NCBI RefSeq assembly: GCF_014651915.1
Contig: NZ_BMXU01000001.1
Coordinates: 1,495,501-1,559,500 of the forward strand
From: Parvularcula lutaonensis
Lineage (GTDB): Bacteria > Pseudomonadota > Alphaproteobacteria > Caulobacterales > Parvularculaceae
Length of the DNA: 64,000 nucleotides
Direction of reading: 5' to 3'
Both the position numbers and the translations under genes were made by a program. Shown here piece by piece: positions 984 through 30,771 of this stretch (position 1 is its first letter; each line of letters opens with the position of its first letter). The notes below the pieces were generated by a model. It was not told the origin of the DNA and made no database searches. It saw only the letters and a list, made by a program, of their open reading frames with translations.

Positions 984-2004
984 GCTTCAGTGCCTCGACC
1001 TGCTCGCCCGTCGTCTCCCAGCTGGTCACGAAGCGGCGGGCCTCGCCTGCATAGGGATCGCCCGGCTGGACCCAGTCGTAGAACTCGGCGCCAGCGTCGC
1101 GGAGAGACTTTGCACGGTCATGGGGCATGCGGACGAAGAGCTCATTGATCTGCGGCTCAACGAGCACTTCGCAATCATCAGTCGCGGCGAAAATGTCCGC
1201 TACCTCCGCGCATTTCGCCCTCGCCTCTTCGGCCAATGAGAGCCAGAGTCCTCCGCCGAAATAGGCAGGCCACTGGGCGGAGAAGAACCGCTGCTTGGAC
1301 GTGCCGAGCCCTGCCCGCTTGCAGCGGTAGGTCAGCTCCTCCGCGAGGCCTGTGTCAAAGACGACAACCGCCTCCGCCTGCAAACAGCCATTCTTGGTCG
1401 CGCCGAGCGAGAGGATGTCGACCCCTGCTTTCCAGGTCAGCTCGGCCGGCGTCGCGCCCGAGGCGTTGACCGCGCCGGCAAAGCGCGCGCCGTCCATATG
1501 CATCTTCATGCCGTATTGGTCAGCGACGTCCCTCAAGGCACGGATTTCCACGGACGTGTAGACCGTTCCCCACTCCGTCGCCTGGGTCAGGCTCAGGACG
1601 GAGGGTTTCACCCGGTGCGCCATCGGCGGATCGTAGGGCGCCATAGCCTCGCGCACGCTCTCGGGCGTCAGTTTGCCAAAGGCCCCTGCCGCAGGAATGA
1701 CTTTCGCGCCGCCGGTATAGAATTCGGGCGCGCCGCACTCGTCGATGAGGATGTGCGCATGCTCGTGGCAGATCGTGGCCCCAAAAGGTTGCGTCAGCAG
1801 GCTGAGCGCAATGCCATTGGCCGCCGATCCCGTGGGCACGAAAGCGAGCGCGGCTTCCTTCTCGAAGATCTCGGCAAAAAGCTTCCGCACACGGTCCGTT
1901 AGCTCATCATTGCCATAGGCCGGCGCGAACCCGCCATCGGCAGCAGCGATCGCCGCCATGATCTCTGGATGCACCCCGCCCCAATTGTCCGAGGTGAACA
2001 GCAT
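973..2004 (-). CDS. Low-specificity L-threonine aldolase / beta-eliminating lyase family
   Basis: A 343-residue PLP enzyme of fold type I. These enzymes cleave L-threonine or allo-threonine to glycine and acetaldehyde. Visible family marks are the N-terminal FTSDNWGGVHPEI, the MHMDGARFAGA substrate/PLP segment, and LGATKNGC, whose lysine is the expected Schiff-base residue. Length is normal. Its ATG shares one base (2004) with the TGA stop of parB, so translation is probably coupled to the partition gene. That is an odd partner, and I infer only co-transcription, not a shared role. A related beta-eliminating lyase activity cannot be excluded. Confidence 0.85.
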   Translation of the reverse strand: MLFTSDNWGGVHPEIMAAIAAADGGFAPAYGNDELTDRVRKLFAEIFEKEAALAFVPTGSAANGIALSLLTQPFGATICHEHAHILIDECGAPEFYTGGAKVIPAAGAFGKLTPESVREAMAPYDPPMAHRVKPSVLSLTQATEWGTVYTSVEIRALRDVADQYGMKMHMDGARFAGAVNASGATPAELTWKAGVDILSLGATKNGCLQAEAVVVFDTGLAEELTYRCKRAGLGTSKQRFFSAQWPAYFGGGLWLSLAEEARAKCAEVADIFAATDDCEVLVEPQINELFVRMPHDRAKSLRDAGAEFYDWVQPGDPYAGEARRFVTSWETTGEQVEALKRAL

Positions 2005-2879
2005 CAGATCGACGAACCCATCAGTCTACGGCAGATATCGTCAAGCTGGTCGAGATTGTCATATTTGAGGACGACCTGCCCTGCCCCGCCCTTCCCCTTG
2101 CGCGTGATATCGACATCCAGGCCGAGGGACTCGCGCAGGTCCTGTTCCAGCGCACGGGTGTCCGCATCCTTCGTTGCCTTCTGGATCGCCTTCGCCACTT
2201 TCTCGGTGCCCTGATCGTTCGCGGGCTTCTGGACCAGGCGCTCGGTTGCGCGGACGGATAGCCCGTCCTTCACCACCTTCTTTGCCGCTGCCAACGGGTC
2301 GTCAGCAGCCAGCAAAGCGCGTGCGTGGCCCATCGATAGCTCACCCGCCATCACCATGCCGCGAACCTCCGGCGGCAAGGCCGTCAGGCGAAGCATGTTG
2401 GACACATGGCTGCGGCTCTTGCCGACCGCCTCGGCGATCTCGGAGGCTTTCTTCCCGTACTGATCGGTCAGCCGCTGATAGGCATCCGCCTCTTCCATCG
2501 GATTGAGGTCGACACGCTGGACGTTCTCGATGAGGGCGATCTCAGCCGAGACCCCCTCCTCCACATCCTTGACGATCGCTGGAATGGTATGGAGCCCGGC
2601 GCGTTGGGATGCGCGCCAGCGACGCTCGCCTGCGATCAGGATGTATTTACCCGGAATGGCATCCTTGCGGACAAGGATCGGCTGGAGGACGCCGCGCGCT
2701 TCGATGGAGGACGCGAGTGCCGCCAGCTCTTCTTCGTCAAACTGCTTGCGCGGCTGGTCCTTGTCCGGCGCGATATCGGCAATATTGATCTCCGACGGGC
2801 GATGCTTGGGCTGACTGTCTGCCTGCGGAACATCACCGAGGATCGCTTCGAGACCGCGGCCGAGACCTTTCTTTGCCAT
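2004..2879 (-). CDS. parB: Chromosome partitioning protein ParB
   Basis: A 291-residue ParB/Spo0J-family protein. ParB is a CTP-dependent DNA clamp that loads at parS and partners ParA in origin segregation. The sequence shows the MAKKGLGRGLEA start, the N-terminal domain with IAGERRWRA (CTP-binding GERR box, about residues 82-90), the LIENVQR stretch, and a helix-turn-helix around EAVGKSRSHVSN that recognises parS. A C-terminal dimerisation domain follows. The start lies one base after the parA stop. Two perfect parS sites sit 2-3 kb upstream in mnmG. The gene is intact, unlike its parA neighbour. Confidence 0.97.
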   Translation of the reverse strand: MAKKGLGRGLEAILGDVPQADSQPKHRPSEINIADIAPDKDQPRKQFDEEELAALASSIEARGVLQPILVRKDAIPGKYILIAGERRWRASQRAGLHTIPAIVKDVEEGVSAEIALIENVQRVDLNPMEEADAYQRLTDQYGKKASEIAEAVGKSRSHVSNMLRLTALPPEVRGMVMAGELSMGHARALLAADDPLAAAKKVVKDGLSVRATERLVQKPANDQGTEKVAKAIQKATKDADTRALEQDLRESLGLDVDITRKGKGGAGQVVLKYDNLDQLDDICRRLMGSSI

Positions 2880-2880
2880 C

Positions 2881-3637
2881 TTACGCGGCCCTTTCCCGGC
2901 CGATCACTTCGCTGGCAAGCTGGACATAAGCCTGGCTGCCTGCGCATTTGAGGTCATAGAGGAGGGCGGGTTTGCCGTGGGACGGCGCTTCGGAAATCCG
3001 GACATTGCGCGGGATCGCCGTGCGGTAGACCTTGTCACCGAGATGGGCACGGACATCCGCCTCCACGTCAGCGCTCAGATTGTTCCGCCGATCATACATG
3101 GTGAGAACCACACCCTGCAACTCGAGCTGTGGATTAAGACGTGCACGAACGGTTTCGATCGTACGCATGATCTGGCTCAGTCCCTCGAGCGCGAAAAACT
3201 CGCATTGAAGAGGGATCAGCACGGCGTCCGCCGCCGTCATCGACCCGACAGTCAGAAGGCCGAGGGAAGGGGGGCAGTCGATGAGCACATAGGTGATATC
3301 GGGGCACTCAGCAGCGAGCCTGTCGATGGCTCGCTTCAGCCGATAATGACGCTGTGGGTCATCGAGCAGATCGATATCAGCTCCGGCCAGCTCCATACCC
3401 GCTGGCGCGACGAAGAGGCGGGGGACCGATGTCTTCTTGAGGATCGAGGAGAGGGGAACATCATCAACGAGCGCGTCATAGGTCGTACCCGTGCGCTCCG
3501 AAACGCCGACGCCGAGACCGGTCGAGGCGTTGCCCTGGGGATCGAGGTCAAGAATGGCGACGGTCTCGCCAACCGCGGCGAGGGCCGTCGACAGGTTGAT
3601 CGCTGTGGTCGATCGCGAGAACCCGCGGTTTGCTCAT
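2881..3637 (-). pseudogene. parA: parA with its Walker A region deleted and a frameshift
   Basis: ParA is the ATPase that moves ParB-bound origins. The ATG at 3637 shares one base with the rsmG stop and encodes MSKPRVLAI. The usual ANQKGGVGKT is then absent: the frame runs through DHSDQPVDG to a stop, while the true continuation TAINLSTALAAVGE resumes in another frame. From there to 2881 everything is normal, including LDLDPQGNAS, the Walker B stretch YVLIDCPPS and RRNNLSADV. About 29 nt are missing; restoring them gives 261 residues, the family's usual length. As read, the longest intact piece is 171 residues from 3396 and cannot bind ATP. It is either a real lesion or an assembly error. Confidence 0.88.
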
Positions 3638-4272
3638 CACTTCCTCTTTGGATCGCGGATCAGCAGGATCCGGGCGTCAGGATCGGTCTGACTGGCCATA
3701 CTTTCGAGATCAAAGGACCATCGTTCGCGCGCTTCGTCCACTTCTTGTTGTGCACGCTGCCCCTTGGGAAAGATCATCGTCCCACCCTCGGCAAGACGGG
3801 GAACGGCAAAATCCAGCAGGCCGGGCAGGGCGGTTACGGCGCGGGCGGTGATGGTATCGAAGCGGTCATGCTCCGGAAAGTTCTCCACACGCCGATTGCT
3901 GACAATGACGTTGCGAAGACCCGTGCGCTCAATCACGCGCTGCAGGAACGCCGCTTTCTTTCCCACGCTGTCGCAGAGTGACAGCCTGAGGGCAGGGACC
4001 CGGTCAGCGGCAAGAATGGCGAGAACCATGCCTGGAAATCCGGCGCCCGAGCCAAAGTCAAGGAGGCGCCGGGCGCTGTTGGGCAGCAGGGCCCAGAGCT
4101 GGGCGCTGTCTGCGTAGTGCCGCTCCCAACGCTCGGGCAGGCTTCCGCGCGCGACAATGTTGGTGTGCGCTGCTGTCTCGATCAGCTCAGCATCATAGGC
4201 ACGAAACCGGGCCCGCTCCTCAGGACTGGCGTCGATATGGGCGAAAAAGGCTTCTGCGGAATCAAGCGACAC
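3637..4272 (-). CDS. rsmG: 16S rRNA (guanine-N7) methyltransferase RsmG
   Basis: A 211-residue SAM-dependent methyltransferase (GidB), which methylates G527 of 16S rRNA. It shows the N-terminal stretch ending [18 protein letters not shown], then the SAM motif [17 protein letters not shown] (about residues 68-84). It keeps the classic position between mnmG and parA. Its 5' end overlaps the end of mnmG by 11 bases, and its TGA stop shares one base with the parA ATG, so the whole run is probably one transcript. Confidence 0.95.
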
Positions 4273-6139
4273 GATCGAGCTTCTTGAGATGAATGGCGAG
4301 AAGAGAAAGAGCAGCAGGCGTCATGCCCTCGATGCGAGCAGCTTGCCCCAGATTCTCCGGCCGCGCCTGCGCAAGACGTTCCTTGATCTCACTGGAAAGG
4401 CCACCCAGCGCCCTGAAGTCAAAGCCTGAGGGAATCGCAAGCCTTTCGTCGCGCTTGAAGGCTTCGATGTCAGCATGCTGGCGCTCGAGAAAGCCCGAAT
4501 AGGTCGCATCCGCTTCGAGCTTCGCCCGCTCGTCATTGCTCGCTTCGGCCAGGCGCGGGAAGTGTTCCGTCAGCTCGTCATAACTGGTGCCCGGAAGGGA
4601 GAGAAGGGTGAGGACAGACCGATGGCGGCCATCCTGCTTCACGCTGAGACCCATCTTTGCCGCTTCATTGGGTGTGACAGTCGTTTCCTCTGCCCATTGT
4701 CGCAGGGCGTTCCAGCGCTGCTGTTTCACGTGAAACGCTTCGGCCCGCTCCTCCGAGACAATTCCATGAGCTTCGCCAAGCGGGGTCAGCCGATCGTCAG
4801 CATTGTCGGCCCGCAGGGACAGACGATACTCCGCCCGCGACGTGAACATGCGATAGGGCTCTGAAACCCCTCGCGTAATGAGATCGTCTATGAGAACACC
4901 AATATACCCTTCGCTGCGATCCATAACGAACGGGTGAGCCTTGTCCCCGATCGCAGCATTGACCCCGGCAACCAGGCCTTGGGCTCCTGCCTCTTCATAG
5001 CCCGTGGTGCCGTTGATTTGCCCGGCGAGAAAAAGGCCCGGTAGGGCCTTTACCTGCAACCGCCGGTCCAAGGCGCGCGGATCGACGTAATCATACTCGA
5101 TCGCGTAGCCATGCTGCTTGATGGTGACATCCTCCAGTCCAGGGATCGTCCTTATCAGAGCGTCCTGAACGTCGGCGGGCAGGGACGTCGAGATCCCGTT
5201 CGGGTAAACCGTGTCGTCTTCCAAACCTTCCGGCTCGAGAAAGATCTGATGGCTCTGCTTGTCCGCAAAGCGGACGATCTTGTCCTCGATCGATGGGCAG
5301 TATCGAGGACCCTTCCCCGCAAGAGCGCCGGAATAGACCGCTGATTTCCCGAGATTTTCCCTGATAATGGCGTGAGTCCGCTCATTGGTCGCGGTGATGC
5401 CGCATGCAATCTGCGGAACCTCGATCTTTCGCGTGAGAAACGAAAACGGCACCGGCTGATCATCGGCAGGTTGCATCTCAAGGCCCGACCAATCGATAGT
5501 CTCGCCGTCCAGACGGGCGGGCGTGCCGGTCTTTAGCCTGCCTAATGGCAATTCCATTGCTTCCAGGCGCGCACCAAGACGGTTGGCGGGGGATTCGCCA
5601 ATCCGGCCTGCGGGGATTCGTTCGTCGCCGCGGTGGATCACGCCCCGCAGAAAGGTCCCGGTCGTCAGCACAACTGCGTCGGCTTCGATCGCGTGGCCAT
5701 TGTCGAGAATGACTCCGCGGCAAACCCCATCCCGGACGACCAGATCCTCCACCGCGCCTTCAACGACTGACAGGCCCTCTTGCTCCTGGATGAATCGCTG
5801 GATCGCCGCGCGGTACAGGGCTCGGTCTGCTTGGGCTCGCGGACCCCGAACAGCAGGCCCTTTCGACCGGTTGAGAAGGCGGAATTGGATGCCCGAAACG
5901 TCAATCGCCCGGCCCATGAGGCCGTCGAGCGCGTCGATTTCCCTCACCAAATGGCCTTTTCCGACCCCGCCGATGGCCGGGTTGCACGACATCTCGCCGA
6001 TCGTGCTGATTTTGTGCGTAACGAGAAGAGTGCTCGCCCCAGCCCGCGCTGCGGCTGCGGCAGCCTCGCATCCAGCATGCCCGCCGCCTATGACGATGAC
6101 GGTCCGATCCTTGGCTTCCGCGCGTTTCACGTGAAACAC
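4262..6139 (-). CDS. mnmG: tRNA uridine 5-carboxymethylaminomethyl modification enzyme MnmG
   Basis: A 625-residue FAD protein (GidA) that works with MnmE to make cmnm5U34 in the tRNA wobble position. It has the N-terminal dinucleotide motif [12 protein letters not shown], the [13 protein letters not shown] signature, and the C-terminal helical domain with [10 protein letters not shown]. The start codon lies inside a parS site (6123-6138), so the first codons ATG TTT CAC GTG AAA are part of the ParB-binding palindrome. A second parS is embedded further along the coding sequence. It begins immediately after the mnmE stop. Confidence 0.97.
4722..4737. promoter_or_regulatory. parS site inside mnmG
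   Basis: The 16-mer TGTTTCACGTGAAACG contains the perfect palindrome GTTTCACGTGAAAC, the conserved ParB nucleation site. It lies within the mnmG coding sequence, about 1.8 kb upstream of parB's start and about 6 kb from the probable replication origin. Confidence 0.93.
6123..6138. promoter_or_regulatory. parS site at the mnmG start codon
   Basis: CGTTTCACGTGAAACA is a second perfect parS palindrome. On the minus strand it overlaps the mnmG ATG, so it supplies the second to fourth codons as well as a ParB-binding site. It is 1.4 kb from the other parS. Confidence 0.93.
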
Positions 6140-7441
6140 CTATTTCCCAATGCAGAAAGAAGAAAAGATATCGTCCAGGATGTCGTCGGGCGCAATACGT
6201 CCGGTCAACTCTTCAAGTCGTGTCGAAGCGGCCCGAAGCGCCTCGGCGCCCATCTCGGGAGCGATCTGCGCAACATGCTCGAAGCGATCGAGCTCATCCA
6301 GAGCTCGCAGAAGGAGAGCCTGTTGCCGTTCCGTCGCCGCGAGGCCCGGGGCGGCAACCTCGTTGAGGTGAGCGACCAGCTTCCCGTGAAGCCTCTCTAT
6401 CGTTTCGGGTGAATGAACGCTCACAGCCTCGCTATCGGAAGCCTGAACAAGATCGGCTTTGGTCCGAACGACGATATCACCTTCACGGGAATGGGCGGCG
6501 AGCCATTCCGGAAGCGGGTCTTTTCCGGCAGGAAAGCACAACAGACGGAGATCCGCATCCTTGGCGGCTGAACGCGCCCGCTCGATTCCTTGCGACTCGA
6601 CGGCCGACGCCGTCTCGTCCCTCACGCCGGCCATATCCAGGAAGGTCACGAGATGCCCACCGATCTCGACACGATGAGAGACAATGTCGCGCGTGGTTCC
6701 CGCCTCATCCGAGACGATCGCGCGGTCTTCCCTGACCAACGCATTGAATAGCGTGGATTTTCCAGCGTTGGGCGGCCCGAGCAACGCCACCTTCACGCCG
6801 TCCGACACCCTTCGCGTACGAGAAAATGAAGCGACGGTCTCTGCGATGGATGCACGAACCGACTCGACGAAGGGCTGCGCACCGGCCGCGATCTCACCGG
6901 GCACGTCTTCTTCGTCGGGAAAATCGACCGCTGCGTCGAGCTTCGCCATGGCCCGGACGAGATCAGCCCGCCACTGGTCCGCCTGGTCACGCAAGCTGCC
7001 ACGGTAATGGGCCATGGCCTGCCGGTGCTGGAGCAGCGTTTCGGCCTCGAGTAGGTCAGCGAGCCCCTCGGCCTGAGTCAGGTCGAGCTTGCCGTTCGCA
7101 AAAGCGCGCGTGGTGAACGCACCGGGTCCCGCGGGCTCTAGGCCCAGCGCTATAAGCTCATCCGAGAGGCGGGCCTCCACCGCCGGTGATCCGTGCAGTT
7201 GCAGCTCCACCACATCTTCGCCGGTGAAGCTGTTCGGAGCAGGAAACCAGAGTGCGAGCCCGTCGTCGATGAGCTCGCCCTGCCTGGAACGGACGAAAAC
7301 GCGCTTGGCAAAGCGGGGCTTCGGAAGGTTTCCCGTCAGTTTTTCAAGGGTTTGCCCCGCTAGCGGGCCAGAAATCCGGAACACCGCAACGCCACAGCGC
7401 CCTTGGCCCGAGGCCCGGGCAAAAATCGTCGAGGCGCTCAA
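6140..7441 (-). CDS. mnmE: tRNA modification GTPase MnmE
   Basis: A 433-residue GTPase (TrmE/ThdF), the partner of MnmG. The sequence has the N-terminal folate-binding domain (FARASGQGRCGVAVFRISG, LQLHGSPAV), the G1 loop LLGPPNAGKST (about residues 221-231), the G3 DMAG motif, and the C-terminal FCIGK with the invariant cysteine of the CxGK tail. It starts at a TTG whose TTGA overlaps the TGA stop of the upstream DUF6489-like gene, so it is probably translated by coupling. Confidence 0.95.
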   Translation of the reverse strand: MSASTIFARASGQGRCGVAVFRISGPLAGQTLEKLTGNLPKPRFAKRVFVRSRQGELIDDGLALWFPAPNSFTGEDVVELQLHGSPAVEARLSDELIALGLEPAGPGAFTTRAFANGKLDLTQAEGLADLLEAETLLQHRQAMAHYRGSLRDQADQWRADLVRAMAKLDAAVDFPDEEDVPGEIAAGAQPFVESVRASIAETVASFSRTRRVSDGVKVALLGPPNAGKSTLFNALVREDRAIVSDEAGTTRDIVSHRVEIGGHLVTFLDMAGVRDETASAVESQGIERARSAAKDADLRLLCFPAGKDPLPEWLAAHSREGDIVVRTKADLVQASDSEAVSVHSPETIERLHGKLVAHLNEVAAPGLAATERQQALLLRALDELDRFEHVAQIAPEMGAEALRAASTRLEELTGRIAPDDILDDIFSSFCIGK

Positions 7442-7680
7442 TCCTTGTCCTGAGCTTTCAGCGCCTGGGCCATCATCGCCTGCATCGCTTCGAAGGATTG
7501 TCCCCCGGCAAGCATGGCCCTCTCCCAGAAACGGGCAGGATCGGAGAGGGTGTCGATATTCTCCTCCATCCGTGCCTTCAGGGAGTCCGTCATCACCTGG
7601 TTCACAGCCGTAAGGTCGGGCAGGCCGAGAAAGGTCCGGGCCTCCTCCGGGGTGCAGTCAATGTCGATCGTGATCTTCAT
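7438..7680 (-). CDS. Small conserved protein (DUF6489-like)
   Basis: An 80-residue acidic protein starting MKITIDIDCTPEEARTFLG. It resembles the small DUF6489 family found beside rho and mnmE in alphaproteobacteria; function unknown. I chose the ATG at 7680 because the conserved MKITI start is there and a GAGGGG stretch lies directly upstream; an earlier ATG at 7710 is less likely. It follows the rho terminator and leads into mnmE with an overlap. Confidence 0.75.
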   Translation of the reverse strand: MKITIDIDCTPEEARTFLGLPDLTAVNQVMTDSLKARMEENIDTLSDPARFWERAMLAGGQSFEAMQAMMAQALKAQDKD

Positions 7681-7721
7681 CCCCTCGGCAAACGCTCCTC
7701 GGCTTTCCAAGTCAAGACAAG

Positions 7722-7750
7722 AAAAAAGCCGCCCGGCGAAGGGCGGCTTT
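7722..7750 (-). terminator. Intrinsic terminator after rho
   Basis: On the minus strand a perfect stem of GCCGCCC with GGGCGGC (arms 7728-7734 and 7741-7747, extended by AAA/TTT) around a 6-base loop is followed by six T (7722-7727). It lies 24 bases past the rho stop, between rho and the DUF6489-like gene. Confidence 0.88.
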
Positions 7751-7773
7751 GTGAATCAGCGCGTGGCTGCCTC

Positions 7774-9063
7774 TTAGGTGTTCATCGAGTCGAAGAAGTC
7801 CTTGTTGGTCTTCGTCTGACGGAGTTTCTCGAGGAGGAAATCGATCGAGTCCTGCGGGTTCATCGGCGACAGGATGCGGCGGAGAACGAAGATTTTCGCA
7901 AGCTCGTCCTTCGGGACGAGGCGGTCCTCGTTCCGGGTCCCGGACTTGGCGATGTCGATGGCCGGGAAGACGCGCTTGTCGGCCACCTTCCGGTCCAGGA
8001 CGATTTCGGAGTTACCCGTGCCCTTGAACTCCTCGAACACAACCTCATCCATGCGCGAGCCAGTGTCGATGAGAGCCGTCGCGATGATGGTCAGCGAGCC
8101 GCCCTCTTCGATGTTCCGCGCGGCACCGAAGAAACGCTTTGGCCGTTGCAATGCGTTGGCATCGACACCGCCGGTGAGAACCTTGCCGGAGCTCGGCACG
8201 GTCGCGTTGTAAGCTCGGCCCAGGCGGGTGATGGAATCGAGCAGGATGACGACATCGCGACCATGCTCGACCAGGCGTTTCGCCTTTTCGATCACCATTT
8301 CAGACACTTGAACGTGGCGCGTGGCAGGTTCGTCAAAGGTCGAGGAAACGACCTCACCTTTGACCGAGCGCTGCATGTCCGTCACTTCCTCCGGGCGCTC
8401 ATCAATGAGAAGCACGATGAGGTAGCATTCGGGATGGTTCGCCGTGATCGCGTGGGCGATGTTCTGCAGAAGGACCGTCTTACCTGTCCGTGGCGGCGCC
8501 ACGATGAGTGAGCGCTGGCCTTTGCCAATCGGCGCGACGATGTCGATCACCCGGTTGGAGAGGTCCTTCTTTTCTTTCGACTTCAGTGTCTCTTCCGAGA
8601 TCACCTCCATATGGAGGCGCTCGTCCGGATAGAGCGGCGTCAGGTTGTCGAAATGGACCTTGAGCCGGGCCTTTTCGGGCTCTTCGAAATTGATGGTGTC
8701 AAGGCTGGTGAGGGCGAAGTAGCGCTCGCCTTCCTTGGGGCTCCGGATCTCGCCGAAGACGGTATCACCCGTCTTGAGCGTGTATTTCCGGATCATCTGC
8801 GGTGAGACGTAGATGTCGTCGGGGCCGGCGAGATAGTTCGCGTCCGGTGAGCGGAGGAAACCGAAACCGTCGGGCAGGATCTCGAGAACGCCCGAGCCCT
8901 TGATCTCGACTTCTTCGTCGGCAAGCTCACGCAGGATTGCGAAAAGGAGGTCCTGCTTGCGCAGCGCGGAGGCGTTATCGACGCCAACCTCTTCGGCGAA
9001 GCTGACGAGGTCCTGCGGGGTTTTTTCCTTGAGCTCGTCAAGGGTGATGCGTTCGGGAAGCAT
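7774..9063 (-). CDS. rho: Transcription termination factor Rho
   Basis: A 429-residue hexameric RNA helicase that ends transcription. It has the N-terminal Rho domain ([13 protein letters not shown]), the RNA-binding cold-shock-like domain around [13 protein letters not shown], the Walker A stretch [18 protein letters not shown] (about residues 175-190), and Walker B followed by [10 protein letters not shown]. Length is typical. It sits between hemJ/hemE and mnmE, as in Caulobacter and relatives. About 200 bases of leader/intergenic sequence (9064-9263) separate it from hemJ and presumably carry its promoter. Confidence 0.97.
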
Positions 9064-13943: not shown

Positions 13944-14651
13944 ATGGTCCGGCAAGTCATTTTCGATACCGAAACAACTGGTTTCTCACCACAGGACGGT
14001 GATCGTCTCATCGAGATCGGCGCGATCGAAATGATCGATGGCAACCTGACGGGTGAAAGCTTCCACCGCTACGTCAATCCCGAGCGCGACGTGCCGATGG
14101 AGGCCTATCGGGTGCACCGGATCTCGACGGAGATGCTGCAGGACAAGCCGCTCTTCAGGGACCCTTCGGTTGGCGAAGCGTTTCTCGCTTTCATCGAGGG
14201 GGCGGAGCTGATCGCCCACAATGCGCCTTTCGATGTCGGTTTCATCAATGCCGAACTCGACATTGCAGGGCTTCCCGCGCTGACGAACAAGGTCATCGAC
14301 ACGGTTCCGATGGCACGGCGGAAGTTTCCTGGCGCTCCTGCATCTCTCGATGCGCTCTGCCAGAGGTTCGGCATCTCCAAGGCCGAGCGTGACGAGAAGG
14401 GCCACGGCGCGCTTCTCGACGCTGAACTCCTCGCGAGGGTCTATATCGAGCTGACCGGCGGTCGGCAGGCGAGTTTCCTGTCTGCATCGACGTCTTCCCG
14501 GTCCGCGCCCGGTGACGCGGGCGGCGATCGCGCCGTCACCTACCAGCGCCCGCGCCCGCTGCCTCCGCGCATCACCGATGAGGAAAGGGCGGCCCACAGG
14601 GCCTTCATCGAAGAGCTGGGCACGCCGATCTGGGCCAAGCTCCAGGGTTGA
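13944..14651 (+). CDS. dnaQ: DNA polymerase III epsilon subunit (proofreading 3'-5' exonuclease)
   Basis: A DEDDh exonuclease of about 235 residues. Exo I IFDTETTGF, Exo II around LIAHNAPFDVGFINAEL, and Exo III with HGALLDAELLARVY are all present. The C-terminal tail (about 180-235) binds the polymerase subunit in the family. I chose the ATG at 13944, which follows an AGGGG stretch; a GTG at 13932 overlapping the coaE stop is an alternative adding four residues. It is the last gene of the rightward origin operon. Confidence 0.93.
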   Translation: MVRQVIFDTETTGFSPQDGDRLIEIGAIEMIDGNLTGESFHRYVNPERDVPMEAYRVHRISTEMLQDKPLFRDPSVGEAFLAFIEGAELIAHNAPFDVGFINAELDIAGLPALTNKVIDTVPMARRKFPGAPASLDALCQRFGISKAERDEKGHGALLDAELLARVYIELTGGRQASFLSASTSSRSAPGDAGGDRAVTYQRPRPLPPRITDEERAAHRAFIEELGTPIWAKLQG

Positions 14652-30174: not shown

Positions 30175-30771
30175 ATGGACAGAACCATTCCCATCTCCGC
30201 CGAAGCCCAGGCCCAGATTTTCACCGAGGCCAGGACCCGCAACGCATGGTCGGACCGCAAGGTCACCGATGAGCAGGTCAGGCAGATCTACGACCTGATG
30301 AAATGGGGCCCGACGTCCGCCAACTGCCAGCCGGCGCGGTTCCTGTTTCTCCGGACCGAAGAGGCCAAGAAGAAGCTCGAGCCTTTCCTGATGGAGGGCA
30401 ACCGCGAGAAAACGATGGCGGCGCCGCTCGTCTGCATCATCGGCTACGATCTTGCGTTCTACGAAAGGCTGCCCGAGCTCTTCCCGCATACGGACGCCAA
30501 GTCCTGGTTCGAGGGCAATGACGACCTGATCCGGGAGACGGCGTTCCGCAACGGCACTCTCCAGGGCGCTTATCTGATGATCGCAGCGCGGGCGCTCGGC
30601 CTCGATTGCGGACCGATGTCGGGCTTTGATCAGGACGGGGTCAATGAAGCCTTCTTCGCTGGCACCACGGTGAAGGCCAACTGGATCTGCAATATCGGCT
30701 ACGGAACCGATGAAAACCTGTTCGAGCGCAGCCCGCGCCTGCCCTTCGACGAGGCGGCTGAGCTGCTATAG
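30175..30771 (+). CDS. Nitroreductase family, malonic semialdehyde reductase RutE/HadB type
   Basis: A 198-residue flavoprotein of the nitroreductase fold. The FMN-contact segment KWGPTSANCQPARFLF and the GLDCGPMSGFD stretch are typical of the RutE/HadB subgroup, which reduces malonic semialdehyde to 3-hydroxypropionate in pyrimidine breakdown. No other rut gene is nearby, so the true substrate is open. The start MDRTIPIS at 30175 fits the family. The stop TAG at 30769-30771 overlaps the apparent ATA start of tsaB. Confidence 0.85.
   Translation: MDRTIPISAEAQAQIFTEARTRNAWSDRKVTDEQVRQIYDLMKWGPTSANCQPARFLFLRTEEAKKKLEPFLMEGNREKTMAAPLVCIIGYDLAFYERLPELFPHTDAKSWFEGNDDLIRETAFRNGTLQGAYLMIAARALGLDCGPMSGFDQDGVNEAFFAGTTVKANWICNIGYGTDENLFERSPRLPFDEAAELL

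Follow-up and report, generated by a model that had tools for sequence, protein, structure and literature searches.

The parA gene of the chromosomal partitioning locus is broken near its 5' end in the assembled sequence (2881 to 3637, minus strand), where 29 nt are absent and the reading frame is shifted, while the surrounding genes and the remainder of the ParA frame are intact. In the same-genus relatives G009, G003 and G001 the absent nucleotides encode the ATP-binding loop ANQKGGVGKT. The lesion is real in the assembled sequence and, judging from that sequence, would abolish ParA; as to its source, we lean toward an error of consensus or assembly. Positions refer throughout to the window, the whole stretch of 64,000 nt that was analysed (G000:C1:1495501-1559500), taken from a genome of 2,954,603 bp in 10 contigs that is 99.98% complete.

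The broken parA in its locus

The ATG of parA (3637-3635, minus strand) opens a frame of 29 codons, the TGA of which ends at 3548 (3548 to 3637), and of its translation only MSKPRVLAI belongs to ParA, followed by 20 further residues and the stop. After these nine codons the coding sequence jumps into the frame that encodes the remaining ParA, with the junction at 3609/3610, to within 1-2 nt. This downstream frame on the minus strand comprises 250 codons and is preceded by a TGA overlapping the ATG (2884-3633, or 2881 to 3633 with its stop); it reads ANRGFSRS, then TTAINLSTALAAVGE, and proceeds to a normal end. By hand count the distance from the ATG to a common ACN-ACN-GCN-ATC block is 28 nt here and 57 nt in each of G009, G003 and G001, establishing that 29 nt are absent. 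Microhomology at the junction amounts to at most 1-2 nt. The initial annotation had described a parA without its Walker A box and with a frameshift, MSKPRVLAI giving way to ParA sequence in another frame and a P-loop of about 29 nt missing, and the frames and the sequences of relatives bear this out in each respect.

The deviant Walker A motif KGGVGKT that marks chromosomal ParA/Soj proteins is thus missing from the window parA, as is a single open reading frame from the start codon. What lies behind the loop is readily recognized by PF13614, at E 1.1e-42 over profile positions 17-176. The first ATG, GTG or TTG of the downstream frame is found at 3396, 76 codons into the alignment, and the start-to-stop remainder of ParA is 171 aa (2881-3396). 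From the assembled sequence as given an ATP-binding ParA could not be made.

The rest of the locus has the appearance, by sequence, of an ordinary parABS system, with the gene order rsmG-parA-parB. The parB gene (2004 to 2879, minus strand), adjacent to parA, encodes a ParB/Spo0J-domain protein of 291 aa with a GERRWRA box and the N-terminus MAKKGLGRGLEAILGD; its match in G009 spans residues 1-291 with no internal stop, and its TIGR00180 score is 192.9 bits against a cut-off of 58.45. The first 20 residues, a region that we presume to contact ParA, are identical to those of G009. On the other side lies rsmG (gidB; 3637 to 4272, minus strand), whose TGA overlaps the parA ATG, and both the RsmG and ParB identities were confirmed by NCBIfam. 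Upstream of rsmG is a minus-strand frame at 4262 to 6139, which we take to be mnmG (gidA), and a consensus scan places two parS-like sites within it, at 4722 to 4737 and 6123 to 6138 (both plus strand), each one mismatch from TGTTTCACGTGAAACA. These are the only two sites in the genome at no more than two mismatches, and none of 100 shuffles of the window gave two or more matches at up to three mismatches. The further claim that parB and two parS sites had survived intact is therefore upheld, each site carrying a single mismatch.

Conservation of the loop and of the rest of ParA

In order to establish how widely the loop is kept we have read 93 ParA loci. KGG[VT]GKT occurs in 90 of them; the three that lack it are the window itself and two duplicates of it. 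In each of 40 relatives the best match to PF13614 starts at profile position 1 or 2, while that of the window genome starts at 12. With the G009 ParA as query the match starts at residues 1-5 in 58 of 62 genomes of the family, and the four exceptions are the window genome, two genomes in which parA meets the end of a contig (in G064 the match stops at base 14217 of 14217, in G060 it begins at base 1) and G055, where a gap of N covers the loop. One of the 58, G066 (L148), retains the loop, and its parA shifts from one frame to another midway along the gene. Breaks near the 5' end of parA are thus seen in the assemblies of G055, G064 and G060 as well, with that of G066 lying further on; these are fragmented assemblies of 210, 290, 390 and 260 contigs, respectively, and the recurrence, which speaks for an error, may be chance.

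Order-wide, 397 of 398 genomes of at least 95% completeness (the window genome included) match the G009 ParA at 1e-50, and among the matches listed (150 of the 397) all but those of the window genome and G064, 148 in number, start at residues 1-5. The one genome with no match at this threshold, G231, was considered as a ParA-less relative and rejected: its match to parB opens at residue 32 and a contig ends 15 bases away, which would place parA in the gap. A comparison with close relatives, as the initial annotation had proposed, finds the loop, among the 40 relatives, the 93 loci and the 62 family genomes compared, in every relative with a readable ParA N-terminus.

The ParA sequence behind the gap is 87-88% identical to that of G009, with dN 0.110, dS 1.07 and dN/dS about 0.1 (NG86), values close to those of the G009-G003 pair (dN 0.120, dS 1.21). 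At 70 columns that are conserved to at least 97% in 90 relatives it shows no deviation, as do 77 of the 90 relatives themselves. Relative-rate counts with six outgroups assign 5-11 amino-acid changes to the window branch and 4-9 to the G009 branch, the window branch being the more changed with four outgroups, the less changed with one and equal with one; these counts suggest no clear excess of change on the window branch, though they lean that way. Neutral evolution over the whole branch would have given about 84 changes at the 70 columns where zero are observed, a rough figure that uses dS/2 and ignores saturation, and any loss of constraint would on this rough estimate be limited to the last ~4% of the branch. 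The remaining ParA frame shows no sign of decay.

Assembly quality around parA

The quality of the assembly was gauged by a scan for lesions in which 400 kb of G009 were compared with 660 kb of the window contig, using 199 conserved G009 genes (at least 120 aa, 55% identity, 70% coverage). Four tests flagged 15 of the 199 in the window genome, and among the 11 that were read parA is the sole clear lesion. In six of the others the start codon had been set too far upstream, two look on visual inspection like open frames of the antisense strand, one shows a frame boundary assignable to neither genome, and the last is a gene without a usual start codon, which we take to be tsaB. The remaining four flagged genes, each a possible further lesion, contain in-frame gaps 9-14 residues long. 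With the two genomes exchanged, 33 of 191 genes were flagged, and the one that was read, G009:C1:887954-888975, is a frameshift in G009 in a gene that forms one open frame in the window genome.

When 29-nt deletions were simulated the four tests caught 467 of 583, a further 111 were detected by end loss alone and 5 were missed. In the real data end loss was seen in 42 of the 199 genes, with an open frame too short at the lost end in 17; from the listed values most of these genes seem to have late true starts or variable ends. The loss in parA, whose first start comes 76 codons late, exceeds every other N-terminal loss among the end-loss genes. We conclude that the region is clean, and that the parA gap is no part of a widespread scatter of indels.

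The presumed tsaB, at 30768 on the plus strand of the window, has no ATG, GTG or TTG where G009 and G003 start; ATA stands at the aligned position, with an in-frame TGA just upstream. Either the gene uses a rare start codon or the sequence has a second, minor flaw here.

Origin of the gap

We infer that the gap is probably an error of consensus or assembly, favoured because the remaining gene is without sign of released selection; a misreading is likelier than the true death of a gene that is widely kept, undecayed and still provided with its full set of partners. The DNA of the cell would then be intact and the consensus wrong at one spot of parA, and ParA would work as in relatives, moving ParB-parS as a nucleoid-bound dimer that depends on ATP. 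Against such an error stand the good quality of the assembly and the fact that parA is the one clear lesion among 199 genes; a clean loss of 29 nt is, moreover, unusual for base calling, and no long repeat accounts for a collapse. The genome contains, at the DNA level, three other loops of the KGGVGK type, the closest of which (on contig C3) is one base off the G001 parA loop over 18 nt. It may match the missing bases of the window genome over all 18 nt, a length short for an assembler, and repeat collapse via another P-loop gene is a weakened but still conceivable cause. Slippage between direct repeats was likewise considered; both GCGATC copies that flank the junction are still present, and simple slippage between them would not yield it. 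Assembly error, one of the explanations offered initially, is strengthened by the undecayed state of the gene and weakened by the cleanness of its surroundings. The same lack of decay is equally compatible with a young mutation, and the lesion, one clean event where the sequence is otherwise accurate, speaks for a real deletion of 29 bp that arose very recently in the sequenced strain and was fixed in isolation or culture. Such a cell would have no working ParA and would survive with poor segregation or a suppressor. A recent deletion accounts for the sequence data no less well, and it is only the cost to be expected of it that makes it less likely; we regard it as possible, if the less credible of the two. 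PMC7022226 describes the system as not essential 'with a few exceptions' and lists the par genes as essential in two Alphaproteobacteria, Caulobacter crescentus and Hyphomonas neptunium. In H. neptunium, according to PMC6650430, in-frame deletions of parA and parB were unobtainable and ParA K18R, altered in a lysine of the Walker A alignment, was dominant negative. The expectation that loss of ParA would be harmful is supported by these reports for two related Alphaproteobacteria. Also against a recent deletion, every genome of the order that was searched has a ParA match except G231, where a contig ends, although small lesions would show only in the 150 of the 397 matches that are listed. A literature search on parA frameshifts gave nothing on point among the matches listed.

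An older loss, in a stable lineage whose chromosome is segregated with no ParA ATPase and that keeps ParB-parS and MipZ, appears decidedly improbable. ParB-parS would then serve other duties, such as condensin loading and MipZ-guided division. For this reading, parB, both parS-like sites and mipZ are all present, and the relative-rate counts point faintly towards more change on the window branch. There are also bacteria with parB and no parA: Table 1 of PMC7022226 lists Streptococcus pneumoniae as 'no parA'. The remnant of an old loss should nevertheless decay, and 70 of 70 conserved columns are unchanged. As for a second ParA, which the initial annotation had put forward as an explanation, searches of the genome yielded neither another chromosomal-type ParA, the broken gene being the sole match to the G009 ParA at 1e-50 or better, nor an intact parA copy on another contig, and a substitute of this type was rejected. 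The other PF13614 matches of the genome are MipZ, an ApbC/Mrp-type protein and two plasmid-type ParA proteins, one on contig C2 (L158:7837-9225, with a ParB-family neighbour at 6775-7815) and one on C3 (L159:6527-7837, neighbour at 5342-6358). The existence of these two genes speaks for a takeover by a plasmid-type ParA, which we consider hardly credible. Both have their own adjoining ParB-family genes, which score 87.5 and 81.7 bits with TIGR00180 (cut-off 58.45) and stay below the cut-off of PF02195, and PF13614 matches of like frame length (391-447 aa) are found in the genomes of G009 and G003, which also have an intact chromosomal parA. The best NCBIfam matches of the two plasmid-type proteins are RepA and SopA, under the respective cut-offs, and the one on C3 carries a MerR-type helix-turn-helix match. 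The pair on C2 (1.08 Mb) is situated near frames that we take to be serA- and serC-like, and C2 may be a chromid or the carrier of an integrated plasmid.

If the gap is an error, as we favour, this genome is not to be cited as ParA-less. A true deletion would represent a natural ParA-null among bacteria where the system is considered essential and would offer a new host for testing whether ParA is needed, and a true ParA-free lineage would be a relative of Caulobacter and Hyphomonas that divides its chromosome by a ParA-independent route. Parvularcula and Hyphomonas are placed in different orders at NCBI, Hyphomonas in Hyphomonadales, and no shared order with the window genome is therefore assumed for the studied species.

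The window genome resembles G066, G055, G064 and G060 in that its parA is not fully readable in the assembly, and differs from these fragmented genomes in its 10 contigs and, from G066 in particular, in that the latter keeps the loop and breaks further on. With the chromosomal ParABS systems of C. crescentus, H. neptunium and the sister genomes G009 and G003 it shares an adjacent parA-parB pair behind rsmG and a full ParB, and with H. neptunium, for which a table of PMC7022226 gives two parS sites, the number of such sites, which are parS-like in the window genome. Unlike the chromosomal ParABS of Alphaproteobacteria, however, the window parA is without the 29 nt that carry its ATP-binding loop and is shifted in frame.
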